DNA of 64,000 nt from Thermodesulfobacteriota bacterium (GTDB lineage: Bacteria; Desulfobacterota_D; UBA1144; Nemesobacterales; UBA2774): the NCBI GenBank assembly GCA_040754335.1, contig JBFMCV010000008.1, forward strand, positions 62,001-126,000. Reading direction: 5' to 3'. Shown one piece after another: positions 23,365-37,353 of the stretch (the first letter of the stretch is position 1; every line of letters starts with the position of its first letter). The position numbers and the translations under genes are program-made. The notes beneath the pieces are model-generated. The model was not told the origin of the DNA. It made no database searches and was given only the letters and a program-made list of their open reading frames with translations.

Positions 23365-24333
23365 TCAGAAATCTCTCCCGTTGCCCGAATCCGGGAGCTC
23401 CGTGAGGGCCCGCGGGTAAGGCTCGAAAAAGGTCTGGCGTCCCATGTATTCCTGCTCGTATTTTATCACCCAGGACTCGAGCACGGCGAGGACAGCCGAA
23501 AGCGGTATCCTCTCCTCCCTGTACGCAGCGAGGAGGTCAAGGAAATGGGCCTTTTCCCTCCCGGTGAGCCTGTCGGAGAAATATCCGAGGGCGTGCATGA
23601 GGACGTTTATCGATGACGGCCGCTTCCGGGGCGATGCGAGCGCGTGCCCGAGCCTCTCCCCGTACGCCGCGATAGCCTCTCCGGGCGGCTTCTCATCGGA
23701 ATTAGCTGTTATTCTTCCGAGCGTCCTCAGCTCTTTCCGGCTGTACGACATGAGGAGGAGCTTGTTCTCGGTGTGGAAGTTTATGAGGGCGCTCGCCGTG
23801 CCCGCATTTTTCACTCCCCTGAAGCGGGCAAGCGTGTAGAGCTTGGTCAGGAAATGCTCCCTGATGCGGAAATTCCTGAGCCGCCCCTCGTCCTCGACGG
23901 CAAGCCCCGGGAACCTCTCCAGCACGGCCCCTGCGAAGAAACCCGCCCCCTTGCCCGACGCTACCTCGCCGTAGGGGCCGGGGAATTCCTTCGCGTCGCT
24001 TAACCCGCACGAAGGCGAGCGGCTCTTGAGTATGAACCCGTCCGCTTCCGTCAGCCCGCCCAGGAACCTCGCGGAGAACCCGCGCATGAGCGCCGTGAGG
24101 TCCCTCCCTGTCGCGGGCTGAATGAGCCTCCTCTCGCCGCCCTTGCTCACGATCCTCACGGGGTCGCGGGGTACGCCGAGGCCTATTTCCAGCTCCGGGC
24201 ATACGGGCCTGAACTCCACCCAGCGTTTCAGGGCCCCGACGAAGTTATCGGGGATAGTCTGTCCGTTGTACCTGCAAGCGTCGAACTCGAAACACCTGCT
24301 CGCGACGACTACGGGTTTGGGAAAGGTTCTCAT
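23365..24333 (-). CDS. DUF523-DUF1722 fusion (TudS-like plus YbgA)
   Basis: 322 aa. The N-terminal half is DUF523: SRCFEFDACRYNGQ, EFRPVCPELEIGLGVPRDP, LIQPATGRDLTA, FILKSRSPSCGL. The cysteines in these three segments are where 2-thiouracil desulfurases (TudS) hold a [4Fe-4S] cluster. The C-terminal half is DUF1722 (YbgA): KNAGTASALINFHTENKLLLMSYSRKELRTLGRI and the conserved EREKIPLS-type YREERIPLSAVLAVLESW. Fused forms are common, and YbgA often neighbours DNA photolyase (ybgA-phr in E. coli). A photolyase lies 1.1 kb upstream on the same strand here. A link to thiolated or UV-damaged bases is inference. Confidence 0.9.
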   Translation of the reverse strand: MRTFPKPVVVASRCFEFDACRYNGQTIPDNFVGALKRWVEFRPVCPELEIGLGVPRDPVRIVSKGGERRLIQPATGRDLTALMRGFSARFLGGLTEADGFILKSRSPSCGLSDAKEFPGPYGEVASGKGAGFFAGAVLERFPGLAVEDEGRLRNFRIREHFLTKLYTLARFRGVKNAGTASALINFHTENKLLLMSYSRKELRTLGRITANSDEKPPGEAIAAYGERLGHALASPRKRPSSINVLMHALGYFSDRLTGREKAHFLDLLAAYREERIPLSAVLAVLESWVIKYEQEYMGRQTFFEPYPRALTELPDSGNGRDF

Positions 24334-24584: not shown

Positions 24585-25370
24585 CTACTGAAGCGTCGTC
24601 GGCCTCTTCTCATCCTCAGGGGCAAGCGAGCGGTTTATCGCCTCCCACCTGGAGAGCAGCATCGCGAGCACCTTCTCGGCGTCCTCGGCGCTCCCCTCCC
24701 TGGCGAGCGTCAGCACGAGCCATAGCTCCGAGACCGAGTCCTCGGTCCTTATCTGCTCAGGCTCTATGCGCGATGTTATCTCTCCGTAATTGAGGAGCAC
24801 GAAGCTCTCCGGGTCGAATCCCGAAAGCCAGTGCCTCAGGTTGCCGGCCCCCGAGCCGAGGTCGCTCAATATGCCCGAGAGCGTAGGGCTGCCCGCGGCG
24901 CCCGGCGAGGCGAGGAAGGCGTCTATGTCGTTCACGGCCGCGTTCAGCCTCCCGAGCGCGGTCCCCACCCTGGTCTTGTAATAGATGGCGTCCTGCCTGA
25001 CGGCCCCGAACCCCGTGTGCGTGAAAAAGTACTTCTTCTCCGTTCCGTCGTACATGAGGAACCATTCGAGCGGAATGAAATTCTCGGCGCTGAATATATT
25101 GGGGTTCGCCTTTGAGCCCACGGGCGTGAGATAGTACTTCCCCTCTTCGTCCTTCATGAAGAAGCAGTCCTCTATCATGTCCTTGTCGATGCCGAGCTCC
25201 TTCGAGAGAGACTCCCTGAACGCGCTGTACTCGCTCCCGTACCACGCCGTATTGGGCGTAGCCGGGCCGTCCTTGAACCTCTCGTAAAAGGAGATGTAGC
25301 TCCGCCAGTAATCGTATTTTTCCCCCGTCTTGTCGAGGGGCTCGTATGTCATGAGCACTGACAGGGCCAT
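24585..25370 (-). CDS. Hypothetical cytoplasmic protein in the photolyase cluster
   Basis: 261 aa with no signal peptide and no clear ribosome-binding site. It contains KYDYWRSYISFYERFKDGP, DKDMIEDCFFMKDEEGKYYLTP, FIPLEWFLMYD, KYFFTHTGFGAVRQDAIYYKTRVGTALGRL, then a helical C-terminus (LWLVLTLAREGSAEDAEKVLAMLLSRWEAINRSL). I do not recognise the family. It lies between the photolyase and DUF523-DUF1722 genes on the same strand, 104 bp after the photolyase stop, so it could share their regulation. Confidence 0.75.
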   Translation of the reverse strand: MALSVLMTYEPLDKTGEKYDYWRSYISFYERFKDGPATPNTAWYGSEYSAFRESLSKELGIDKDMIEDCFFMKDEEGKYYLTPVGSKANPNIFSAENFIPLEWFLMYDGTEKKYFFTHTGFGAVRQDAIYYKTRVGTALGRLNAAVNDIDAFLASPGAAGSPTLSGILSDLGSGAGNLRHWLSGFDPESFVLLNYGEITSRIEPEQIRTEDSVSELWLVLTLAREGSAEDAEKVLAMLLSRWEAINRSLAPEDEKRPTTLQ

Positions 25371-25474: not shown

Positions 25475-26848
25475 TCAGGGGAGCCCCGTGTCCTTCTTGA
25501 TCTGCGAGATGTAATCGTCGTCTATGCGCCCCCCGGAATACGCCTCGTGCGCGAGGTTCCTCATCTCGTAGTGGTTCACGATGGGCCTCGGGTAGGGGAG
25601 CTTGTACGTGAGCGGGTTGTGGATCTTTTCCGGTTCCACCGAGGCGAGGTCGGGTATGTATTTTTTTATGTAGAGGCACTCCGGGTCGTAGTTCTCCGAC
25701 TGGAGTATCGGGTTAAAAATGCGGAACGGCTTGGGGTCGGCCCCGCAGGACGCCGACCACTGCCAGTTGCCTATGTCCACTGTCTCGTCGTAGTCGACCA
25801 GGTGCTCGAAGAAGTGCCTGTCCCCCCACCTCCAGTCGGTGATGAGGTCCTTCGTCAGGAACGACGCCACTATCATCCGGAGCCGGTTATGCATCCAGCC
25901 CTCTTCCCTGAGCTGCCTCATTCCCGCGTCCACGATAGGGTAACCCGTGCGGCCCTCGCGCCAGGCGTCGTACCACTTCTCGCTGTTAATCCACTTTATG
26001 TTCCGCCTCTTTTCCTGGAACTCGAGGCTCCTCGTCTCGGGGAAGTTGTGCATGATGTGGTACCAGAACTCCCTCCACGCGAGCTCCGATACGTATGGGT
26101 TCGGGTCGGTCGCGGCCGAGACTGCCGCCTCGTAGACCCTCCTCACTGATACTATGCCGAACCTCAGATACGGCGAGAGTCTGGACGTCCCGTCCAAGTA
26201 AGGGAAGTCCCTCGTCACGCCGTAGTCGCCGAAATTGAAGTCCCTGAGCCTGGTGACCGCAAAATCGGGAGGCCAGTGCCTGTTCTCAGCCCCGGGGAGG
26301 TCACGGAGCATGTTTTCAGCGGGGGCGGACGGTATGGGAGGCGAGCTTATCTTCTGGGGCGCGTCCGCAGCAGCGTTCTTTTGCTTGCCCTGCCATATGC
26401 CGTAGAAGGCGTTAAACACCTTTCTCTGGTCTATCTCGTGAGGGGGGACGAGGAACGTGTCGTCGTACTTCCTGAACACGGTCCCGTGGAGTCTGCACTG
26501 GTGTTCGACCCCGAGGTCGCGCTTTACTCCCGAGAAGCCGTACGCCCTGTTCGTGTACACCGCCTCGGCTTTCTGAGTATTGATGAGCGCGGGGATTATC
26601 TCCTCGGCCTTTCCCCTGAGCACGAGCAGGTAAGATCCGAGCCGCCTGAGCTCGGCGTCTAAGCTCAGGAGCGCGTCCGAGAAAAGCGCGAGCCTCTTGC
26701 TCCCTTCAGCGTATTTTCCGAGGATCGAGTCCTCGAGGACGTAGAGGGGTATGACCTCCCTGCTGTCCCTCACCGCGTTCAGAAGCCCGGTATTGTCGTC
26801 CGTCCTGAGATCGCGCTTGAACCAGAAAATAGACCTGCCGTGTATCAT
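25475..26848 (-). CDS. phrB: Deoxyribodipyrimidine photolyase
   Basis: 457 aa, full length for the CPD photolyase/cryptochrome family. The N-terminal antenna Rossmann domain begins SIFWFKRDLRTDDNTGLL. The FAD-binding catalytic half has RLSPYLRFGIVSVR, LAWREFWYHIMHNFPE, the conserved YPIVDAGMRQLREEGWMHNRLRMIVASFLTKDL, WRWGDRHFFEHLVDYD, NWQWSA, and the C-terminal YPRPIVNHYEMRNLA. It uses blue light to split pyrimidine dimers in DNA. AGGACGG stands before the ATG. A sigma factor and a CarH-type light regulator lie 0.8-2.3 kb upstream. Confidence 0.95.
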   Translation of the reverse strand: MIHGRSIFWFKRDLRTDDNTGLLNAVRDSREVIPLYVLEDSILGKYAEGSKRLALFSDALLSLDAELRRLGSYLLVLRGKAEEIIPALINTQKAEAVYTNRAYGFSGVKRDLGVEHQCRLHGTVFRKYDDTFLVPPHEIDQRKVFNAFYGIWQGKQKNAAADAPQKISSPPIPSAPAENMLRDLPGAENRHWPPDFAVTRLRDFNFGDYGVTRDFPYLDGTSRLSPYLRFGIVSVRRVYEAAVSAATDPNPYVSELAWREFWYHIMHNFPETRSLEFQEKRRNIKWINSEKWYDAWREGRTGYPIVDAGMRQLREEGWMHNRLRMIVASFLTKDLITDWRWGDRHFFEHLVDYDETVDIGNWQWSASCGADPKPFRIFNPILQSENYDPECLYIKKYIPDLASVEPEKIHNPLTYKLPYPRPIVNHYEMRNLAHEAYSGGRIDDDYISQIKKDTGLP

Positions 26849-27637
26849 CCGTCCTGTCCCATGCCTCCTCGAATAAATGTCGATCCAAATGGCGCACGCT
26901 CTCTTCGCGCGCCGGAATCCGTCCCCTGAGCCGGTTGTGCGGAATATCCCCTGTGACAGGCCGGGGGTGACCTTCGCGTAATGCCTGTCCCTTCAATTCT
27001 ACTCTGTAACTTCGGCGGATTCTACAAAAAAATACGACGGGCACACAATGTGCGGTGCGTATCGATTTACACTCTGCACGGAGCGCTATTTTTATTTCCC
27101 TTCCCCTCATAGGAGGGGGGAGGGCATGCCCTGAACCATGTCCCGGACACCGGTCCGGGATCGTTTCAGGGTCAGGGTGGGGGTGACACCATTCACTCAT
27201 CCAATCAACAAAACCCGTTCATCCTGAGCCTGTCGAAGGATGTATTACTTTTTCTGTTATTGCGAGGCAGCGTGTGCAGACTTGGCAACAAGTGAGAAAT
27301 CTATTCTTTCATCTTCAATTCCCTCCTTAGAAAAAGGAGGACAATTCCGAGCAAACGAGGAATTGGTCGGTACTGATAAATGGCAATAAAATGCCTTAAT
27401 CGGCGTAACGTGGGTAGTAAATTCAAATTAGGGAGGATTTAGTTTTCCATTTTTAAATCCCCCTTTACAAAGGGGGAAATAAACATCTCTTGCTGGAATC
27501 TCGTCTTTTCGGTATAACCCAATCGCGGCTGGCCTGTCCTGAACCATGTCCCGGACTAGTTTATGGATCGCGACCGTGGCAATCTCGCTTTTTTCATGAG
27601 ATTGCTTCGCTTTGCTCGCAATGACAGACTGTAAACC
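26849..27637. repeat. Repeat-rich intergenic region
   Basis: 790 bp without a gene. Palindrome GGCACACAATGTGCGGTGCG lies at 27036-27055. A CCCTTCCCCTCATAGGAGGGG repeat (27101 onward) resumes at GTCAGGGTGGGGGTGACACC and has CCTGAACCATGTCCCGGAC palindromes in the middle. Next is CCCGTTCATCCTGAGCCTGTCGAAGGAT (27208-27241). At 27320-27440 a CCTCCTT/AAGGAGG repeat carries a CAATTCC/GGAATTG element. A CCCCCTTT repeat lies at 27462-27480 and a degenerate REP at 27522-27578. Confidence 0.7.
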
Positions 27638-28756
27638 TCACAAATACCCCTTGAGCATCTCGCCGAGCCCCGATTTCGATATCTTCTCGAGGGCAGCCTT
27701 CTCTATCTGCCTTATCCTCTCGCGGGTGACGCCGAACTTGCTCCCTATCTCGTCGAGCGTGTATATCTTCCCTTCCCCGAGCCCGTATCTCATCCTGACG
27801 ATCTCCTCTTCCTTGGGCGTGAGGGACGAAAGGGACTCGTCGAGGAGCGTCTTTATCCTTATGTCGGATACGGCGGACTCCTGTCCCTCCCCGAGGTCGG
27901 GCATCAGGTCGACGTAGGTCTTTTCGTTGTCGTCGGTCACAGGCTTGTCGAGCGATAAGACGTTATCGGTGCCGTCGAGCACGGCCTGGACCACCTCCCT
28001 CGAAAGGCCGGCTTTCTCGGCGATCTCTTCGGGGTAGGGCTTCCTTCCGAGCTCATCTTCGAGAGCGTACTTCGCCCTGAATACCTTTCCCGACTGCTCG
28101 AGCACGTATACGGGCACCTTTATGGTCCTCGTCTTCTCGGCGATCGCCCTCGAAAGCGCCTGCTGAATCCACCATGCGGCGTAAGTCGAGAACTTGAAGC
28201 CCTTCCTGTGGTCGAACTTCTCGACCGCCCTTATGAGCCCGAGGTTCCCCTCCTGGACGAGGTCCGTGAGCGGAAGCCCTCTCCCGAGGTGCCTCTTTGC
28301 AATGCTCACTACGAGCCGCAGGTTCGATCTTATAAACCTGGACTTCAGCTCCTGCGCCTTATACGAATAAACCTTCATCGTGGCGTCGAGCCTGTTTTTG
28401 TCTATCTCGGGCTTCGTTTTGAGCTTGCCGCCCGCGAGGCGCTCCAGGTCCTTCTGAATCTTCCTGGCTTTCTTTTCGCACTCCTTTATCTTGGCCCCTA
28501 GCTCTTTCTCGTCGTCGGGCGTAAGAAGCGGCTCGGTCAGCAAGTCGCGGAAATAGACCTGCAATACCCTTTCCTCCTCGTATTTGGTCCACTTCCTTTC
28601 CTTCTCCCTGCGTTTTTTGGCGGGGGAAGCTGCCTCTGCTTCCTCCTGCTCCCTGAATGTATCGTAGGCGTTTTCAAGCCTGCCGCGCTGGATGAAAAAA
28701 TCCTCGTCCGAGTAATCCCCGGAGGAGAAATATCCCCTGTCGAATTCGTTGTCCAT
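27638..28756 (-). CDS. Sigma-70 family RNA polymerase sigma factor (group 1/2 type)
   Basis: 372 aa with an acidic N-terminus. Region 1.2 is VLQVYFRDLLTEPLLTPDDEKELG. Region 2 is complete (RFIRSNLRLVVSIAKRHLGRGLPLTDLVQEGNLGLIRAVEKFDHRKGFKFSTYAAWWIQQALSRAIAE). Region 3 starts KVPVYVLEQ. Region 4 carries the helix-turn-helix YTLDEIGSKFGVTRERIRQIEKAALEKI. It has all regions of a primary-type sigma but is short and lacks a long region 1.1, so it is either a compact housekeeping factor or a group 2 relative such as RpoS. It is divergent from a CarH-like regulator. The 5' UTR of about 147 nt carries extra TTAGACA sites. Confidence 0.92.
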   Translation of the reverse strand: MDNEFDRGYFSSGDYSDEDFFIQRGRLENAYDTFREQEEAEAASPAKKRREKERKWTKYEEERVLQVYFRDLLTEPLLTPDDEKELGAKIKECEKKARKIQKDLERLAGGKLKTKPEIDKNRLDATMKVYSYKAQELKSRFIRSNLRLVVSIAKRHLGRGLPLTDLVQEGNLGLIRAVEKFDHRKGFKFSTYAAWWIQQALSRAIAEKTRTIKVPVYVLEQSGKVFRAKYALEDELGRKPYPEEIAEKAGLSREVVQAVLDGTDNVLSLDKPVTDDNEKTYVDLMPDLGEGQESAVSDIRIKTLLDESLSSLTPKEEEIVRMRYGLGEGKIYTLDEIGSKFGVTRERIRQIEKAALEKISKSGLGEMLKGYL

Positions 28757-28890
28757 TATTTTAATACCCCCCTGCTTCTCTCTATATACTTTATATATTC
28801 CTTTAGACTCGATTTACAAGGGCCGGGATTCATCCGGCCCCGAAATTAAATGCAATTAAATAATGGCCGGATCAGGTCTCAACGGTACGG

Positions 28891-28930
28891 TGTCTAATGG
28901 CTGTCTAATATATTATATAGATGTCTAATA
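28891..28930. promoter_or_regulatory. TGTCTAAT direct repeats, putative CarH-type operator
   Basis: TGTCTAAT occurs at 28891, 28902 and 28922, spaced 11 and 20 bp (one and about two helical turns). CarH operators are reported as tandem 11-bp direct repeats. The third copy sits between the -35 and -10 boxes of the sigma-factor promoter; the other two are just downstream. An inverted copy lies in the promoter of the regulator gene (29108-29114). Confidence 0.65.
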
Positions 28931-28938
28931 TATGTCAA
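28912..28938 (-). promoter_or_regulatory. Putative promoter of the sigma-factor gene
   Basis: Minus strand: TTGACA (28938-28933), N4, TTAGACA, N4, TATAAT (28917-28912), a 15-bp spacer. A -10 shifted by 2 bp (TAATAT) would give 17 bp. The layout copies the divergent promoter at 29098-29124, and the flanking ATGTCAAGCAT at 28932-28942 is the exact reverse complement of 29094-29104. Confidence 0.65.
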
Positions 28939-29097
28939 GCATCACAGGTGAGACCGAATTGTCGGAACAGGTCTCCTGAAACTGCATTTACGGCTCTACA
29001 ATCATAATTATCATACAAAAGACAGGCAGGTTACAATACATTATTAATCAACTTATCGAATATAATGCAAGCCTGACATGAAATATTCTACATATGC

Positions 29098-29124
29098 TTG
29101 ACATACCTTAGACAAGTGTATAAC
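29098..29124 (+). promoter_or_regulatory. Putative promoter of the CarH-like regulator gene
   Basis: TTGACA (29098-29103), TACC, TTAGACA (29108-29114), AGTG, TATAAC (29119-29124). The putative operator half-site lies inside the spacer, which suggests self-repression. The ATG at 29134 is only 9 nt after the -10, so the message would have almost no leader; no ribosome-binding site is present. Confidence 0.65.
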
Positions 29125-29133
29125 ATTACCACC

Positions 29134-30120
29134 ATGCAGGGCAGCCGTGAGGATTCGACCAGGAAATTTTCCATGAAGGCGGCCTCCAGGATGACGGGGC
29201 TCACTCCCCACGCTATACGGGCATGGGAGAGGCGTTACGGAGTAGTCACGCCTGGAAGGGACTCCAACAACAGGAGGTTCTACAGGGAGAGCGACATTGA
29301 GAGGCTCGCCCTCCTCCAAAAGGCTACCGGCGCGGGGCACCCGATAAGCCAGGTGGCGGGGTATTCGAAAGAGGAGCTCCAGGAGATAGTGGGCGCGATG
29401 AACGTCATCGATATGCCGTCCAGAAAACCCGTAGAAACCTTCAGGCAGGCTCCCGCCGCGGGAGACCTTTCGATCGTCAGGGATTTCGAATCGTACATGG
29501 ACGGTATCCTTGCAGCAGTCGAGAGGATGGACAGGAAATCGCTAGAGGAGATCCTGATAGCGGTCGAGACCGAGGTCGGGAGGAACGCGCTCCTCGAGAG
29601 GGTCGTCGTGCCCATCATGGAGAGGATAGGCGACCTCTGGAGGAAAGGGGAGTTAAGGATTTCGCACGAGCACCTTGCGACGCAGGCGGTGAGGACTTTC
29701 CTCGGCGGCCTCCTCGCCCTGCAGAAGACATTCCCCGGCGCGCCGCACGTAGTGGTCACCACTCCTTCCGACCAGGTCCACGAGTTAGGAGCGCTTTCGG
29801 CGGCGGTCGCGGCAGCGAGCGAGGGGTGGAACGTCACTTACCTCGGGCCGAGCCTGCCTTCCGAGGAAATAGCCGGGGCCGTGGCGTATAACGGCTCGAA
29901 GGCCCTCGTCCTGAGCCTCATATACCCCGAGAGCGACCCTCTCGTAGCGCGCGAGCTCCGTAAGCTCAGGCGCTACCTGCCGGGCCTCCCCATCATAGTC
30001 GGCGGGAGGGCGAGGCAGAGCTACTCGCAGGTGCTCGGGGAGATAGACGCCGTCGTCGTTAACGACCTCTACGGCGTCCGCACAGTGTTGGAATCCATCC
30101 GCACTAACGGCGTCGCCTGA
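29134..30120 (+). CDS. MerR-type regulator with B12-binding light-sensor domain (CarH/LitR-like)
   Basis: 328 aa from the ATG at 29134; a TTG at 29098 is the -35 box, not a start. N-terminal MerR winged helix: FSMKAASRMTGLTPHAIRAWERRYGVVTPGRDSNNRRFYRESDIERLALL. A four-helix bundle (about 115-205) follows, carrying W169-x9-EH (WRKGELRISHEH), the motif linked to adenosylcobalamin photosensing in CarH. The B12 Rossmann domain has the axial-ligand-type segment DQVHELG (His 216) and YLGPSLPSEEI. Known CarH proteins bind DNA as tetramers in the dark and release it when light breaks the Co-C bond. Binding to the TTAGACA sites here is inference. Confidence 0.92.
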   Translation: MQGSREDSTRKFSMKAASRMTGLTPHAIRAWERRYGVVTPGRDSNNRRFYRESDIERLALLQKATGAGHPISQVAGYSKEELQEIVGAMNVIDMPSRKPVETFRQAPAAGDLSIVRDFESYMDGILAAVERMDRKSLEEILIAVETEVGRNALLERVVVPIMERIGDLWRKGELRISHEHLATQAVRTFLGGLLALQKTFPGAPHVVVTTPSDQVHELGALSAAVAAASEGWNVTYLGPSLPSEEIAGAVAYNGSKALVLSLIYPESDPLVARELRKLRRYLPGLPIIVGGRARQSYSQVLGEIDAVVVNDLYGVRTVLESIRTNGVA

Positions 30121-30374: not shown

Positions 30375-31214
30375 CTACACTCTCGCAGCCCTTCTCCTCC
30401 TCACCGCAAAGAACACGCCTACCAGCATCAATCCCGCCGCTGCCGCGAGCATCCCCCATTCCGACAGCGTCGGGATATTGGTCGGGGCCATCCTGAGCGC
30501 TATGGTGCACGCTCTCCAGTCGGCGGGAACACTACCTACAATAAGATCTCCGGTGGGTCCGCCTTCCAGAAAAAGAAAGCTCTCGCCGATCGTTAGCACA
30601 AATTCACCGGACTGACTATTTATTCCTAGAGCGGTGAATACCCCCTCAAAGACTTGATCGGGCTCGACAACAGGGTTCTGGAAAACATTAAAGCCCAGTG
30701 TAATCACTCTGATCACGGCGGAGCGCGACTCGGTGATGACCGAGGGAGCGGTGATCAATTCATTCGGCCCGCCTGTATTGCACGCGACGTCGATTACCGG
30801 GTTGTCAGGGTCTACTCCCCTATACCTGAAGGCCCCGGCGGCGAATGCGTCAGTAGGGTCAGTCCAGCTGCAGGTGATATCCGTGGAGTCGGGGGAGCCG
30901 TCGAACCTGCCGTATATACCGAGTATGCATTGTTCGTTTCCTCCGCATTCCCCCTCATCGAGCGTCGACCAGCTGTCGGGGACCGGATCGAGGAACGTAT
31001 TATTACCGTCGGAGTACGTGGAGCACATTAACAGCTCGAAATCCCCCGGGAATCCCGAGCCTGTTGCGATAACCCCCTGCGTAACATCGACGTCGATGTC
31101 TATTCTCGTTCCCGTGGATTCGATGTCGACTAATTGGACGACCGCGTGGGAAGCGGTTACGGAAAGCAGTAATAAAGGAACCGCATAAAGAAATGTCTTT
31201 AAATTTTTCAACAT
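30375..31214 (-). CDS. IPTL-CTERM surface protein, tandem cluster member 4
   Basis: 279 aa from the third Met (ATG at 31214), which is 6 nt after GGAGG; the ATG at 31220 overlaps the ribosome-binding site. The signal peptide ends near ASHA. The mature part carries a Cys-rich core shared by the cluster: LMCSTYSDGNNTF, STLDEGECGGNEQCILGIYGRFDGSPDSTDITCSWTDPTDAF, FRYRGVDPDNPVIDVACNTG. The cysteines probably form disulfides. A tail of IPTLSEWGMLAAAAGLM, a hydrophobic span and VRRRRAARV is the sorting signal. Last of four genes read on the minus strand. Confidence 0.9.
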   Translation of the reverse strand: MLKNLKTFLYAVPLLLLSVTASHAVVQLVDIESTGTRIDIDVDVTQGVIATGSGFPGDFELLMCSTYSDGNNTFLDPVPDSWSTLDEGECGGNEQCILGIYGRFDGSPDSTDITCSWTDPTDAFAAGAFRYRGVDPDNPVIDVACNTGGPNELITAPSVITESRSAVIRVITLGFNVFQNPVVEPDQVFEGVFTALGINSQSGEFVLTIGESFLFLEGGPTGDLIVGSVPADWRACTIALRMAPTNIPTLSEWGMLAAAAGLMLVGVFFAVRRRRAARV

Positions 31215-31299
31215 CACCATCCTCCTTCAATTCGTTTTATTTTATGCGGATTCCTCCCCGGCGATAGCCGGCCTGGGCGGAACCCGGTTAATTCCTATA

Positions 31300-32145
31300 T
31301 TAGGTTCTGACTGCCCTTCTCCTCCTCACCGCAAAGTACACGCCCGTAATCATCAATCCCGCGGCAGCCGCGAGCATCCCCCATTCGGAAAGCGTGGGTA
31401 TCGTCGTCGGCGCGGCCCTTAATACGACAGCGCAGGTCCTCCAGTCATAATCACCAGGGGGGAAAATACCTATTTGGGGAATGGACCCGCCGCTCGGGAA
31501 TAAAGCGCTGAACCCTATTGTGGCTGATTGCTCGCCGAATTCGCTGCCTCCTATTGCAAAGAACTCTCCCTGAAAGATCGGAACTGCCTGGGGCGATACG
31601 GAAAACATACCAACATCCAGATTTCCGATCTGAGCGACTATGATAACGGCTGAGCCGGGATCCGCTTCAAACGGTGGCGTGGTGACCGCTGTTTGCGGGC
31701 CGCCCGTGATGCATGATACGTCTATAACCGGGTCGAACTGGTCGACCCCGTGATACCTGAAAGAGCCGGCCGAAAAAGCGTCCGTCGGATCGGTCCAGCT
31801 GCATGTGATGTCCGTGGAATCGGGCGAGCCGTCGAACCTCCCGTAAATGCCGAGTATACATTGCTCGCTTCCTCCGCATTCCCCGGTATCAAGAGTGGTC
31901 CACCCGTCGGGAGCGGGGGGGAGGAACGAGTTGTTTCCGTCAGAGAACGTACCGCACATTATGACCTCGAAATCGTCCTCGAAGCCCGAGCCTGTCGCGA
32001 TAATACCGCTCGTGATGTTGTTGTCGATATCGAGCCTGAAGCCGCTCGACTCCGTGTCGACAAGCTGAACGACCGCGGGAGAAGCGGTTACGGAAAGAAG
32101 AAATAAAGGGAAAGTATAAAGAATAGACTTAAGAATCTTCTGCAT
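31300..32145 (-). CDS. IPTL-CTERM surface protein, tandem cluster member 3
   Basis: 281 aa from the ATG at 32145 (GGAGGATGGCG upstream). Signal peptide to about residue 23 (ASPAV). It shares with member 4 long near-identical stretches, e.g. GECGGSEQCILGIYGRFDGSPDSTDITCSWTDPTDAFSAGSFRYHGVD, so these two are the most recent duplicates. The middle (GGPQTAVTTPPFEADPGSAVIIVAQIG) has drifted most. C-terminal signal IPTLSEWGMLAAAAGLMITGVYFAVRRRR. Ligand or role unknown; a surface-displayed disulfide-stabilised beta domain is likely. Confidence 0.9.
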   Translation of the reverse strand: MQKILKSILYTFPLFLLSVTASPAVVQLVDTESSGFRLDIDNNITSGIIATGSGFEDDFEVIMCGTFSDGNNSFLPPAPDGWTTLDTGECGGSEQCILGIYGRFDGSPDSTDITCSWTDPTDAFSAGSFRYHGVDQFDPVIDVSCITGGPQTAVTTPPFEADPGSAVIIVAQIGNLDVGMFSVSPQAVPIFQGEFFAIGGSEFGEQSATIGFSALFPSGGSIPQIGIFPPGDYDWRTCAVVLRAAPTTIPTLSEWGMLAAAAGLMITGVYFAVRRRRAVRT

Positions 32146-32306
32146 CGCCATCCTCCGTTAATCGGAATTTTTTATACCGATTGTATACTTAATATGAATC
32201 ACTTGCTGCTTATTCGTATATTAAACCAAAATATTCAGCATCCCTTAATTCAACCCGCTCATCCTTCGACGAGCTCAGGACGAACGGGTTGAAAATTCAT
32301 CGTGGG

Positions 32307-33122
32307 TCATGCATCCTGGATCTTTCTTTTCCTAATAGCAAAGAACACGCCTACCAGCATCAATCCCGCCGCAGCCGCAAGCAGGCCCCATTCGGAAAGT
32401 GTGGGGATATTTGTCTGAAACGCCCTGAGCGCGATCGTGCAGGCCCTCCAGTTGTCTGACTCGGTCCCAAGCTGGAATTCTTCTTCCCCGGTAGGCCCCG
32501 ACTCTTCAAACGTCGATGAGGCGGCGAAGAGCTCGATTGTCTGGGTGCCGGAAGAGGACGTAGTCTCAAACAATGCGTTTTCGGCTTGTGCGGTAACTTT
32601 CGGGATCAGGTTATACCTGAGCAGAGATACGATCCAGACGACCTCGGAGCCCGGTTGCGTATTTATAGAGGGAGCCGTGGCGACCAGTCCAACCCCTGTC
32701 TCGCATCCGACGTCTACAATCGGGTTGTTTATGTCCACCCCCGAGTACCTTAAAGCCCCTGCGGCGAAAACGTTCGTGTTGAGGTCCCAGTTACAGAAAA
32801 TCTGGGATGCGCCCGCCGATTCGTCGAGTCTCGTCCAGATAGCAAGCTCGCAACTGTCCACTCCGCCGCAGCCGCCCGAATCGAGCAGTGAAAACACTCC
32901 CGGCGTGGGGTCGAAAAAGGCGTTGGTTTCATACGCGGTCGTGCACGTAATGATCTCGAAATCGCCCTGTTTGCCTGAAGGTATATTTACGGGTGCCTGA
33001 TTGAAGAGGCCTTCCTGGTGATTGGAACTGACCCCGTCTAAAATTATCTCGGCATTCGACGGGGATAATGAAGTAAGGAGCATAAATGCCGTAACACCAA
33101 TTATTTTGATGTAGGTAAGCAT
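32307..33122 (-). CDS. IPTL-CTERM surface protein, tandem cluster member 2
   Basis: 271 aa from the ATG at 33122 (AAAGGAGTATGGCG upstream). Signal peptide to about residue 24 (SLSPSNA). The core keeps the cluster pattern but is more diverged: ITCTTAYETNAFFDPTPGVFSLLDSGGCGGVDSCELAIWTRLDESAGASQIFCNWDLNTNVFAAGALRYSGVDINNPIVDVGCETG. The sorting tail is IPTLSEWGLLAAAAGLMLVGVFFAIRKRKIQDA, with Lys replacing some Arg. The DNA of the tail (32338-32385) is almost identical to that of member 4 (30404-30450), which suggests gene conversion. Confidence 0.9.
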   Translation of the reverse strand: MLTYIKIIGVTAFMLLTSLSPSNAEIILDGVSSNHQEGLFNQAPVNIPSGKQGDFEIITCTTAYETNAFFDPTPGVFSLLDSGGCGGVDSCELAIWTRLDESAGASQIFCNWDLNTNVFAAGALRYSGVDINNPIVDVGCETGVGLVATAPSINTQPGSEVVWIVSLLRYNLIPKVTAQAENALFETTSSSGTQTIELFAASSTFEESGPTGEEEFQLGTESDNWRACTIALRAFQTNIPTLSEWGLLAAAAGLMLVGVFFAIRKRKIQDA

Positions 33123-33549
33123 CGCCATACTCCTTTAATCATATTTACACAACAATATCACAAAAGAGAGTGTTTTAGAAGGATCTTATGATTTTCCGGG
33201 TGTCCGGACGGGTCAGGAACCGGGGGAATTTATAGCCTGAAGTTCCGACTCAGACGCTCCGCCCGTCGGCAGGTCGCTTTAGGACTGCCTCGCGATAACG
33301 GAAAAATGAAAAATAGGGTGAGGAGGTACAATAATTCTATAAATCGAATGAAACCCGTTCGCCCTGAGGCGCAGAATCTGCGCTCATATATGATTGCTCC
33401 GTCACTCCTCATCTTTCGCTAAATATAGGAGCGAGGATAATACTGACCTGCGAGCCTGTCCTGAACGGAGTCGAAGGGTCGAAGGACGAGAGAATATTCA
33501 TCGCGGCTGGAAGCCGCTCCTACAGATGACGTGTGCCGGGGTATTCGAC
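33123..33549. repeat. Repeats between IPTL-CTERM genes
   Basis: The first 110 bp are the AT-rich upstream region of the 33122 gene, similar in part to 34384-34500. Then come a CCCGTTCGCCCTGAGGCGCAGAATCTGCGCTCATATATGATT palindrome (33357-33393), a CCTGTCCTGAACGGAGTCGAAGG motif (33451-33487) and a single REP (33500-33523). Confidence 0.6.
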
Positions 33550-34374
33550 CTAAGCCCTCGCCTCCCTTCTCCTCCTCGCCGCAAACCACACTCCCGCAAT
33601 CATCAATCCCGCCGCCGCCGCGATCATCCCCCACTCGGAAAGCGTGGGTATCGGGCGGCTGATATCGATTTCAGGTCCGAAAGCGATCGTGCAGGCGCGC
33701 CAGTCTCCCTCGACAAATGTGTCGAATTCGTATTCTCCGGTCGGGACGGTATCTTCAAACGCGAAACTATCTCCACTTCCGACGATAAATTGGCCAAGCG
33801 AACTGCCGCCGAACCCAAAGTTTCCTTCCTCCACCTGGTTTGAGCCGACAATTTGCGTCTCTAATATACCGCCGTATGCAAACGTCCTGACGACTGCCGA
33901 GCCTGCGCTAGTCAGTATCGACGGAGCGGTGGGGACGCCGAAGCTGCCTGTGTTACATTCGACGTCGATAAAAAAATCAGCCGGATCGACACCGCTGTAT
34001 CTGAACGAGCCGCCTCCGTAGATGGTCGTGGGATCGGCCCAATGGCACGTGCTCAGTGAAGAGTCGGGGGAGTCGTCGGTCCTGTAAAATATTCCCAGAA
34101 TACATCCTCCGCTTCCCCCGCAGCTTCCGCTGTCGAGCGTCGTCCACCCCGGCGTGGCATTGTTAAAAGCGTTTGTGCTGTCTGAAGGCGTCGCGCATAT
34201 CAATATCTCGAACTGCCCTGACTCTCCTCCGGGGATCGGTATCGTGCCCTGGTTCAAATTCGGGATTGAGTTTACATCCACGTCGACCCCTACTAGCTCT
34301 ACAACCGCATTGGAAGCCGTTGCGTGGAAAATAAGGATTAAATACGCTATTACAGCTATGGAGATCCTGCTCAT
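33550..34374 (-). CDS. IPTL-CTERM surface protein, tandem cluster member 1
   Basis: 274 aa from the ATG at 34374 (AAAGGAGGATGGTTGCC upstream; an earlier ATG at 34383 overlaps the ribosome-binding site). Signal peptide MSRISIAVIAYLILIFHATASNA. The Cys core follows: ILICATPSDSTNAF, TLDSGSCGGSGGCILGIFYRTDDSPDSSLSTCHWADPTTIYGGGSFRYSGVDPADFFIDVECNTG. The tail is IPTLSEWGMIAAAAGLMIAGVWFAARRRREARA. It is the first of the four-gene series, transcribed away from the MFS gene's 3' end on the same strand. Confidence 0.9.
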   Translation of the reverse strand: MSRISIAVIAYLILIFHATASNAVVELVGVDVDVNSIPNLNQGTIPIPGGESGQFEILICATPSDSTNAFNNATPGWTTLDSGSCGGSGGCILGIFYRTDDSPDSSLSTCHWADPTTIYGGGSFRYSGVDPADFFIDVECNTGSFGVPTAPSILTSAGSAVVRTFAYGGILETQIVGSNQVEEGNFGFGGSSLGQFIVGSGDSFAFEDTVPTGEYEFDTFVEGDWRACTIAFGPEIDISRPIPTLSEWGMIAAAAGLMIAGVWFAARRRREARA

Positions 34375-34504
34375 GGCAACCATCCTCCTTTAGTCGTACT
34401 TACTCAACAATATCATAAATTAGCCTGTTTTTGAAGGATTACCCGATATATCCTGTGGCTCGACGGGTCAGGAACCGGGGGAATTTATAGCCTGAAGTTC
34501 CGGC

Positions 34505-35671: not shown

Positions 35672-35766
35672 TTGTCCTAGTTCAGCGCGTGTCACGGAAG
35701 GGTTTTTTATTTTAACACGGCTTTCCGAAATTGATACACCGGGGCGCGCGTGTTAGTTTTACCTCT

Positions 35767-37353
35767 ATGAAGCGGGGGCCAACGTATAAAAAGACCGGGC
35801 GGACGGGGGAGAAGCGGGCGCTTTCGTCAGTGAATATAGAGACCGACTCCTACGACAGAGAGCTATTCTCGGAGTTGGAATCGGACTCCGAAGGGCTCAG
35901 GGAGCTCATAGAAAGGGGTCAGGCCCTTCTCCCGTCGTGGAGATCGCTCATGCTCGACCTCTTCGCCGCCTTCTACAAGCACAACGTCGTATTCCTCCCC
36001 GGGGAGGACATAAGGAAGAGCTCGCTCCTGCCCCGGAAGATACTCCTCGGCGTGCAGAAAGACCCCGACTACCCGGCGCTCCGCGAGGAGACCGTCCTAG
36101 ACGCGTTCCGGTCGACGCTCGCCGCCATGCAGATGGGCGCGATGGTGCTCGAATGGCTCAGGTCCGAGGACGGACCCGGAGAAAAGGGCCTCGTCAGGGA
36201 ATGGGAGGCCGACAGGGCCGAGAGGGACCTCGAGGAGTTGTCTCAAGAAAGCGAGACGATGGACGAGATAGCGGGTGAAGAAAGAGAGGGAGAGGAAGGC
36301 GGGATGAGCGAGGCGTTCGAGAAGGTGAGGCGCGGGAAGAAGGCTGAGCTCGATAAAGAGAAGAAGGCCTTCGGGAAGCTCGCTGAGGAGCTTGAAAAGG
36401 GGCACGGGAAAATGGATGTCAGGATAAAGGGCCTCGTGAAGTCTTCGATGAAGGAGACATCCGAAAGCGTGGAGACCTCCGAGGAGGAGCTATCTTCGTG
36501 GAGCGCGTCAATGGGCGCGCCCGGTGAAAGATCAGCCGCGGAGAAGCTCGACCTCGCGGCGAAGCTCTATTCGAACGAGAAGCTGAGGCGGCTCTCCCGC
36601 ATAGTGGGCAGCCTCAGGGAGGAGATGCTCCGCGGGAGGAGGAAGTCCTGGGCGCGGAGGGGGAGCGAGGTCTTCGACGTCTCAACGGGGAGCGATATAG
36701 GGAGGCTCGTTGCCTCCGAGCTCGCGGGGCTTGCGAACCCGAGGCTCCGTACCGATTTCAAGAAGAGGCTCCTTGAAGGGAAGCTGCTGCAGTACTCGCT
36801 CAAAGACGAGCAGGGGAGGGGGCCCATGGTGATATGCCTCGACGGCAGCTCGTCCATGGAGGGGAAGAAGGAGCTCTGGTCGAAGGGCGTATGCCTCACG
36901 CTGCTTGACATAGCGAAGAGGGAGAGACGGAAATTCAGCGTCGTCGTTTTCTCTTCGGGCGGCGAGCCCGTGCGGGTATTCGAATCGAGCCCCGGCGAAG
37001 GCAGGGGCGGGTGGGGGATGAAGGAGAAGGACGTGTTCGAGCTCGCGGGCTATTTCCCGGGCGGGGGCACCAATTTCGAGGAGCCGCTCGACAGGGCGCT
37101 CGGTATCTTGCGCGGCTCCAAGTTCAGGCGGGGGGACATCGTGTTCATAACGGACGGCGAGGCGGGGATAGGGGATGCGTGGTTGGAAGGCTTCAAGCGC
37201 GAGCAGCGGAGGCTCGGGTTCAAGGTCTATTCGGTGCTGATCGACCTCACGGGAAGGGAATCGTGGGAGACGCTGTCATTATTCAGCGACAAGGTCACTT
37301 CAGTCTCCAGGCTCACGTCGGACGCGGCTAAGGGGCTGTTTCTTGATTTGTGA
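35767..37353 (+). CDS. VWA domain protein (ViaA/CoxE-like)
   Basis: 528 aa from the ATG at 35767; an in-frame TTG lies at 35731, and neither has a clear ribosome-binding site. The first 340 residues are helical and highly charged (many EEE/KKE runs near 160-250). The von Willebrand A domain is C-terminal with a complete MIDAS: DGSSSM (DxSxS), GGGTNF (Thr), ITDGEA (Asp). ViaA/CoxE-type proteins normally work with a MoxR-type AAA ATPase (RavA for ViaA) to load metals or remodel enzymes. No such ATPase lies in this window, so its partner must be elsewhere. Confidence 0.85.
   Translation: MKRGPTYKKTGRTGEKRALSSVNIETDSYDRELFSELESDSEGLRELIERGQALLPSWRSLMLDLFAAFYKHNVVFLPGEDIRKSSLLPRKILLGVQKDPDYPALREETVLDAFRSTLAAMQMGAMVLEWLRSEDGPGEKGLVREWEADRAERDLEELSQESETMDEIAGEEREGEEGGMSEAFEKVRRGKKAELDKEKKAFGKLAEELEKGHGKMDVRIKGLVKSSMKETSESVETSEEELSSWSASMGAPGERSAAEKLDLAAKLYSNEKLRRLSRIVGSLREEMLRGRRKSWARRGSEVFDVSTGSDIGRLVASELAGLANPRLRTDFKKRLLEGKLLQYSLKDEQGRGPMVICLDGSSSMEGKKELWSKGVCLTLLDIAKRERRKFSVVVFSSGGEPVRVFESSPGEGRGGWGMKEKDVFELAGYFPGGGTNFEEPLDRALGILRGSKFRRGDIVFITDGEAGIGDAWLEGFKREQRRLGFKVYSVLIDLTGRESWETLSLFSDKVTSVSRLTSDAAKGLFLDL

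Follow-up and report, generated by a model that had tools for sequence, protein, structure and literature searches.

The known targets of CarH/LitR proteins are genes for pigments, repair or small regulators, and in Streptomyces coelicolor the ECF sigma factor LitS is located with a LitR-family light regulator. To our knowledge, the phylum Dadabacteria has no cultured member, and a search of the open literature found no described light regulation in it. The papers searched, mostly open-access ones, also contained no earlier description of a CarH/LitR protein associated with a group 2 sigma factor or occurring in Dadabacteria. CarH operators consist of three or four tandem 11-bp nnnnTnnACAn repeats, one of which contains the -35 element TTGACA, and imperfect repeats are allowed (PMC9304148). 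Here we describe a locus in a 64,000-nucleotide stretch of a Dadabacteria genome (the window) that, judged from its sequence, is probably a CarH-type photoswitch wired to a group 2 sigma factor, with repression by adenosylcobalamin (AdoCbl) in the dark and release in the light.

The divergent locus and its operators

The sigma gene (minus strand) and the regulator gene (plus strand) diverge from a 377-bp intergenic region, with the following features:

29134..30120, plus strand: CarH-like MerR/B12-binding regulator, 328 aa, ATG start, with W169, E179, H180, H216 and Arg170
29121..29126, plus strand: likely -10 of the regulator promoter, TAACAT, 17-bp spacer, 7 nt ahead of the ATG
29083..29126, plus strand: regulator-side operator, TCTACA at 29087, TTGACA (-35) at 29098 and TAGACA at 29109, in 11-bp steps
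28891..28942, minus strand: sigma-side operator, TnnACA starts at 28938 (the -35 TTGACA), 28927, 28907 and 28896, in steps of 11, 20 and 11 bp
28910..28915, minus strand: likely -10 of the sigma promoter, TAATAT, 17-bp spacer, with TAnnnT at the same spacing in 10/10 species
27638..28756, minus strand: group 2 RpoD-like sigma factor, 372 aa, regions 1.2-4 (Pfam regions 2, 3 and 4)

The first-pass annotation had read the repeats correctly in both letters and coordinates: TTAGACA lies on the minus strand at 28928-28922, 28908-28902 and 28897-28891 and on the plus strand at 29108-29114, and TTGACA at 28938-28933 (minus) and 29098-29103 (plus). As it had also reported, ATGCTTGACAT is identical at the sigma-side and regulator-side promoters, and two extra copies of TTAGACA, 20 and 11 bp apart, lie beyond the sigma promoter. 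The embedded TTAGACA is one half-site within a longer array, and the -35 TTGACA itself doubles as an operator half-site. At both promoters, tandem 11-bp nnnnTnnACAn repeats overlap the -35 and -10 elements, so that the CarH-type spacing proposed earlier matches the published code on both sides. The regulator-side array has an additional imperfect repeat, ATAACA at 29120, which covers the -10.

The -10 elements had originally been assigned as TATAAT and TATAAC at a 15-bp spacer. These letters are present but unconserved, whereas TAnnnT stands at a 17-bp spacer in all 10 compared species, so the likely -10 elements are 28915-28910 (minus) and 29121-29126 (plus). The conserved -10 lies two bases downstream of the earlier assignment, and this cross-species comparison ruled out the 15-bp spacer with TATAAT. 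On the regulator side, TAACAT followed by a gap of 6-7 nt to the ATG recurs in eight species, and a ninth has TAATTT with 7 nt. A transcript starting 6-7 nt past the -10 would begin at or beside the ATG in these nine species, which leads us to predict a leaderless regulator mRNA in the window (29121-29134, plus strand) and in the relatives.

The CarH-like regulator and the group 2 sigma factor

The regulator contains MerR_1 (E 3e-16), B12-binding_2 and B12-binding domains by Pfam, and its recognition helix, IRAWERRY, is of the R-x-WERRY type expected of CarH DNA-binding domains. By phmmer, its best PDB sequence match was T. thermophilus CarH (5c8d, E 1e-26), to which it is about 26-29% identical. 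Its AlphaFold model (pLDDT 83.5) has the MerR domain, helix bundle and Rossmann domain of CarH and matches 5c8d/5c8e; the top Foldseek matches were all CarH (5c8d E 1e-17; TMt of the cobalamin domain about 0.84). The Wx9EH motif that caps the adenosyl group is intact as W169-x9-E179-H180, and the W169-x9-EH and B12-binding His (H216) noted at first pass stand with the ATG at 29134. Among 94 relatives outside family f8, W is found in 90 and EH in 94, with W169, E179, H180 and H216 conserved in 90-94. The B12 motif reads QxHx2G-x41-SxI-GG against the reference D/ExHx2G-x41-SxT/V-x22-27-GG: His, Gly, Ser and the spacing agree, and two side positions deviate (D/E to Q, T/V to I). The Gln at -2, in place of Asp/Glu, is common among the relatives (89/94). 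The NCBIfam CarH equivalog NF052513 was the best match, at 113 bits against a cut-off of 400 and thus below threshold. Fold, Wx9EH and the cobalamin His support the earlier description of the regulator as CarH-like, and its sequence places it among CarH-type proteins but not within the named equivalog.

One residue bears on the signal that the regulator reads. In T. thermophilus CarH, His132 is the upper cobalamin ligand after illumination, and the H132A variant stays mostly tetrameric in light (PMC10442372). Arg170 replaces this His in the window regulator; among the relatives, the position is most often occupied by R or K (64/94), and H occurs in 8/94. Without the His132 ligand, light may dissociate the protein poorly, and the regulator could be an AdoCbl-dependent repressor that responds less to light than to the supply or oxidation state of cobalamin. 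We consider this unlikely: Wx9EH, the holder of the adenosyl group, is intact, the neighbouring photolyase and RudS genes are typical light genes, and an earlier report, to the extent that it is cited in PMC10442372, saw H132A disassemble in light. A survey of myxobacteria ascribes the His132-type residue to "many" CarH proteins rather than to every one, and the residue therefore does not strictly define the group. The window genome also encodes a PduO-type adenosyltransferase, which implies a capacity to convert imported cobalamin into AdoCbl.

In the sigma factor, regions 2, 3 and 4 scored above the Pfam cut-offs and region 1.2 was marginal. The first-pass annotation had called it a primary-type factor; instead, it is one of about ten group 2 RpoD-like paralogues, and the primary-like RpoD is encoded elsewhere. 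The window genome has 23 genes with sigma-70 region 4, of which 11 are long and RpoD-like, and group 2 sigma factors have multiplied strongly within the Dadabacteria lineage, with about ten non-primary ones in this genome. In the tree, a 535-aa protein (G000_C3_311) clusters with Escherichia coli RpoD, and the window sigma factor falls in a separate expansion of Dadabacteria paralogues, so the latter belongs to group 2, which is defined by RpoD-like regions 2-4 beside a distinct primary sigma factor. The CarH-adjacent sigma factors of families f1 and f7 form a single clade (support 100/98). Several family genomes lack the sigma gene, which would fit the dispensability of group 2 factors. The helix contacting the -35 element, VTRERIRQIE, is as in primary factors; the promoters that the factor recognizes are therefore expected to be RpoD-like.

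Two features lie close to the sigma start:

28820..28842, minus strand: GC-rich stem-loop in the leader of the sigma gene, located in relatives between the FAS1 (fasciclin) and sigma genes
28792..28819, minus strand: candidate P2, TTGTAnnTnnnnTCTAAnnGnATATATA, a promoter-like block conserved immediately ahead of the sigma start

The stem-loop recurs in eight related genomes with differing stem sequences and no U-run after it. The leader as a whole folded no better than shuffled sequences, and a riboswitch was discarded as a candidate, given no Rfam match and folding at shuffle level.

The P2 block occurs once each in five genomes (G000, G001, G002, G005 and G009), always at this place, and a control search returned none. 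P2 may allow sigma expression independent of CarH, and because it is retained in g3 relatives that have lost the CarH regulator, complete dark silence of the sigma gene is not assured. The uniqueness and conservation of P2, and its survival in g3 after the loss of both CarH and operator, could also mean that the sigma factor is expressed chiefly from P2, the CarH promoter providing a boost only and CarH mainly controlling itself (and FAS1 in relatives). We judge this slightly less likely still than a reading of cobalamin supply. Four conserved half-sites cover the upstream promoter in two g1 genomes in which the sigma gene comes first, and P2 was detected in genera g1 and g3 only, so elsewhere the sigma factor depends on the operator-controlled operon.

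Conservation of the operator and its gene neighbourhood

As a single word, TTAGACA is at most mildly overrepresented across the window (8 copies against 4.1 expected). The intergenic region contains four TnnACA pairs with a step of exactly 11 bp, where dinucleotide shuffling gave 0.018 such pairs on average; not one of the 5000 shuffles yielded four such pairs or two copies of TTGACA-N4-TTAGACA. A genome-wide search for TTAGACA promoters, suggested at first pass and run here as TTGACA-N4-TTAGACA, found two occurrences only in the 3.26-Mb genome, both at the promoters described above. Across 16 family genomes it gave 13 matches, 12 of them within this intergenic region, and the reversed control gave none. 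The pattern is confined to family genomes with a regulator ortholog; one further genome with an ortholog, G006, has a one-base variant. The layouts 0/11/31/42 (sigma side) and 0/11(/22) (regulator side) recur in 10 species of two families, and the set of operator, regulator and sigma gene is kept across the Dadabacteria family and one further family.

The thirteenth match, at L185 (G011:C92:3905), is a second CarH-type repeat pair, located between divergent genes for an SDR protein and a small membrane protein; it is probably an additional target of the regulator in that relative.

Upstream of 72 CarH-like genes of other lineages, the distances between TnnACA sites peak at 11 bp, with 87 pairs at this distance against 0-6 at other short distances and at least one pair in 59/72 loci, indicating an operator code common to the entire subfamily.

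A search of the window genome for other CarH targets, using three-repeat arrays, gave two further matches only, both of the TTAACA type (L052 1490-1520, at G000 C5:200155; L051 1500-1528, at C3:496139). The L052 array adjoins a porin gene and the gene of a Pho-type response regulator, neighbours that make Pho boxes with a spacing resembling CarH operators the likelier identity, and we set these arrays aside as further CarH targets. Such arrays, together with the MerR domain, are what could be cited for classical MerR activation through distortion of a long spacer, or for repeats belonging to another factor, e.g. a Pho-box-like 11-bp system. The former is ruled out by a spacer of 17 rather than 19 bp and by direct repeats without a palindrome; as to the latter, TTAGACA arrays occur only beside the regulator and vanish with it, and we hold the two together to be very improbable. 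A chance accumulation of AT-rich words resembling promoters, for which only the mild enrichment of TTAGACA in the window could speak, is refuted by conservation, with the layout in 10 species, no match to the control pattern and 0/5000 shuffles, and carries practically no weight.

Loss of the regulator was observed in genus g3, represented by two genomes (completeness 77 and 59%). Both keep the sigma gene at 68-70% identity, and the photolyase and, on the longer contig, an MFS gene remain in unchanged order. Neither has a regulator gene or an 11-bp pair upstream of the sigma gene; loss of the operator along with the regulator is expected if the regulator protein binds it. In four other family genomes, neither a regulator nor a close sigma ortholog was found. 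Family f8 (genomes of about 1 Mb, L092-L098) also has regulator and sigma genes head to head. All seven of its regulators have H180 replaced by Arg and H216 by Ala, and their upstream regions contain no 11-bp pair, the sites being spaced 7, 12, 14 and 21 bp. To judge from these replacements, the pairing of regulator and sigma factor in f8 has outlived the B12 chemistry. In a free tree the f8 sigma factor is separate from that of the window, and a joint clade was not rejected (p-AU 0.50), so the f8 pair may be either inherited or the product of a second coupling.

Downstream of the sigma gene, the window contains:

26996..27025, minus strand: promoter-like element GTAGA-N16-GAGTAnAnT ahead of the photolyase gene, candidate sigma target
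25475..26848, minus strand: photolyase/cryptochrome family gene (Pfam DNA_photolyase, FAD_binding_7), downstream of sigma in conserved order
24585..25370, minus strand: conserved 261-aa cluster protein without a Pfam match
23365..24333, minus strand: TudS (DUF523)-DUF1722 fusion, a RudS-type tRNA 4-thiouridine desulfidase (Pfam)

RudS-type genes are frequent in light-responsive operons (PMC11417400). The gene run downstream of the operator in the family is, with losses, FAS1, sigma, NAD(P)-binding/DUF2867 protein, membrane-like protein, photolyase, 261-aa protein and DUF523/DUF1722. In most relatives the sigma gene is second, behind FAS1 and under the same operator; in the window genome, which lacks FAS1 at the site, the sigma gene is first on the operator. 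CarH-like genes of other lineages adjoin FAS1, DUF2867 or RudS-type genes, and no sigma gene of any type was found within the flanks examined, which extended 5 kb at most, of 75 such loci, using a combined sigma/ECF profile that recovers all 20 of the sigma factors used to build it. This suggests that the sigma factor joined an already existing CarH regulon in Dadabacteria. These flanks and the searched literature, in neither of which a comparable sigma factor turned up, agree with the earlier remark that a full-length sigma factor is an unusual CarH target.

The element ahead of the photolyase gene is exact (12/12) in G000, G001, G002 and G007 and matches at 11/12 positions in the g3 genomes G005 and G009; it was not found in G012, where the photolyase gene overlaps the one before it in the sigma run. 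It is the sole candidate sigma target found and should be regarded as a lead. As a genome-wide marker of the sigma regulon it was discarded, its other matches sharing no genes and looking like chance.

On the other side of the locus, the interval from the regulator to the MFS gene contains four paralogues in tandem (30375-34383, minus strand) whose C-termini carry an IPTLSEWG-type tail (IPTL-CTERM sorting signal), and related genes recur at the same place in the family. A VWA protein weakly similar to ViaA (35731-37353, plus strand) is conserved beside the MFS gene.

Proposed photoswitch and comparison with known systems

In the dark, the AdoCbl-bound regulator would occupy both arrays, covering the -35, spacer, -10 and start region and excluding RNA polymerase, so that the group 2 sigma gene and the regulator's own gene would both be repressed, as the operator code and the protein family suggest. 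In the light, cleavage of the Co-C bond would release the regulator assembly from the DNA and permit transcription of both genes from their TTGACA-17-TAnnnT promoters. The joint control of regulator and full-length sigma factor proposed at first pass is thus supported, in terms of predicted sites, by CarH-code operators at both promoters. The sigma factor might then amplify the response, most plausibly on the photolyase and neighbouring photo-damage genes; a regulon of photolyase and stress genes is a guess.

Features in favour of the photoswitch are the match, uniqueness and conservation of the operator, its loss together with the regulator, the CarH fold and motifs, the adenosyltransferase, and the photolyase and RudS genes nearby. 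Arg170, the Gln at -2 of the B12 motif and the apparently CarH-independent P2 block near the sigma start weigh against it. If the switch operates, photolysis of a single cofactor could, through a full-length sigma factor under CarH, redirect much of the cell's transcription. More tentatively, and with somewhat less than an even chance in our estimation, light would release the group 2 sigma factor to form an RpoD-like holoenzyme serving a global photo-stress regulon, and in the streamlined f8 genomes of about 1 Mb a second, B12-free signal would drive the same wiring. The locus suits direct testing: operators occur at both promoters, regulator and operator have disappeared jointly in some relatives, and in a sister family the regulator has lost its B12 residues.

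Among known systems, the locus resembles the class I LitR/CarH proteins of T. thermophilus and Bacillus megaterium in its MerR domain, four-helix bundle and Rossmann B12 domain, Wx9EH and cobalamin His, and in its tandem 11-bp TnnACA repeats overlapping -35 and -10, its apparent autoregulation and its divergent target. It differs from them in that the target is a group 2 sigma factor rather than carotenoid genes, the sigma-side operator skips (11-20-11), and Arg replaces His132. As in S. coelicolor LitR-LitS, a light regulator of the CarH/LitR family stands beside a sigma gene; however, LitS is a short ECF factor for carotenoid genes, whereas here a full-length RpoD-like factor accompanies photolyase and RudS. 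Photolyase and RudS are also controlled by the class II LitR repressors of Pseudomonas putida and mendocina (PplR, PmlR2), but those have a partial B12 domain and work with a LOV protein and without a sigma target. Myxococcus xanthus likewise combines a sigma factor (CarQ, ECF) and CarH-type repressors (CarH/CarA) in a light pathway, although CarQ is controlled by the anti-sigma factor CarR and singlet oxygen, not by CarH. The photoreceptor and operator are therefore of a known kind; what is new is the group 2 sigma target and its evolutionary record.
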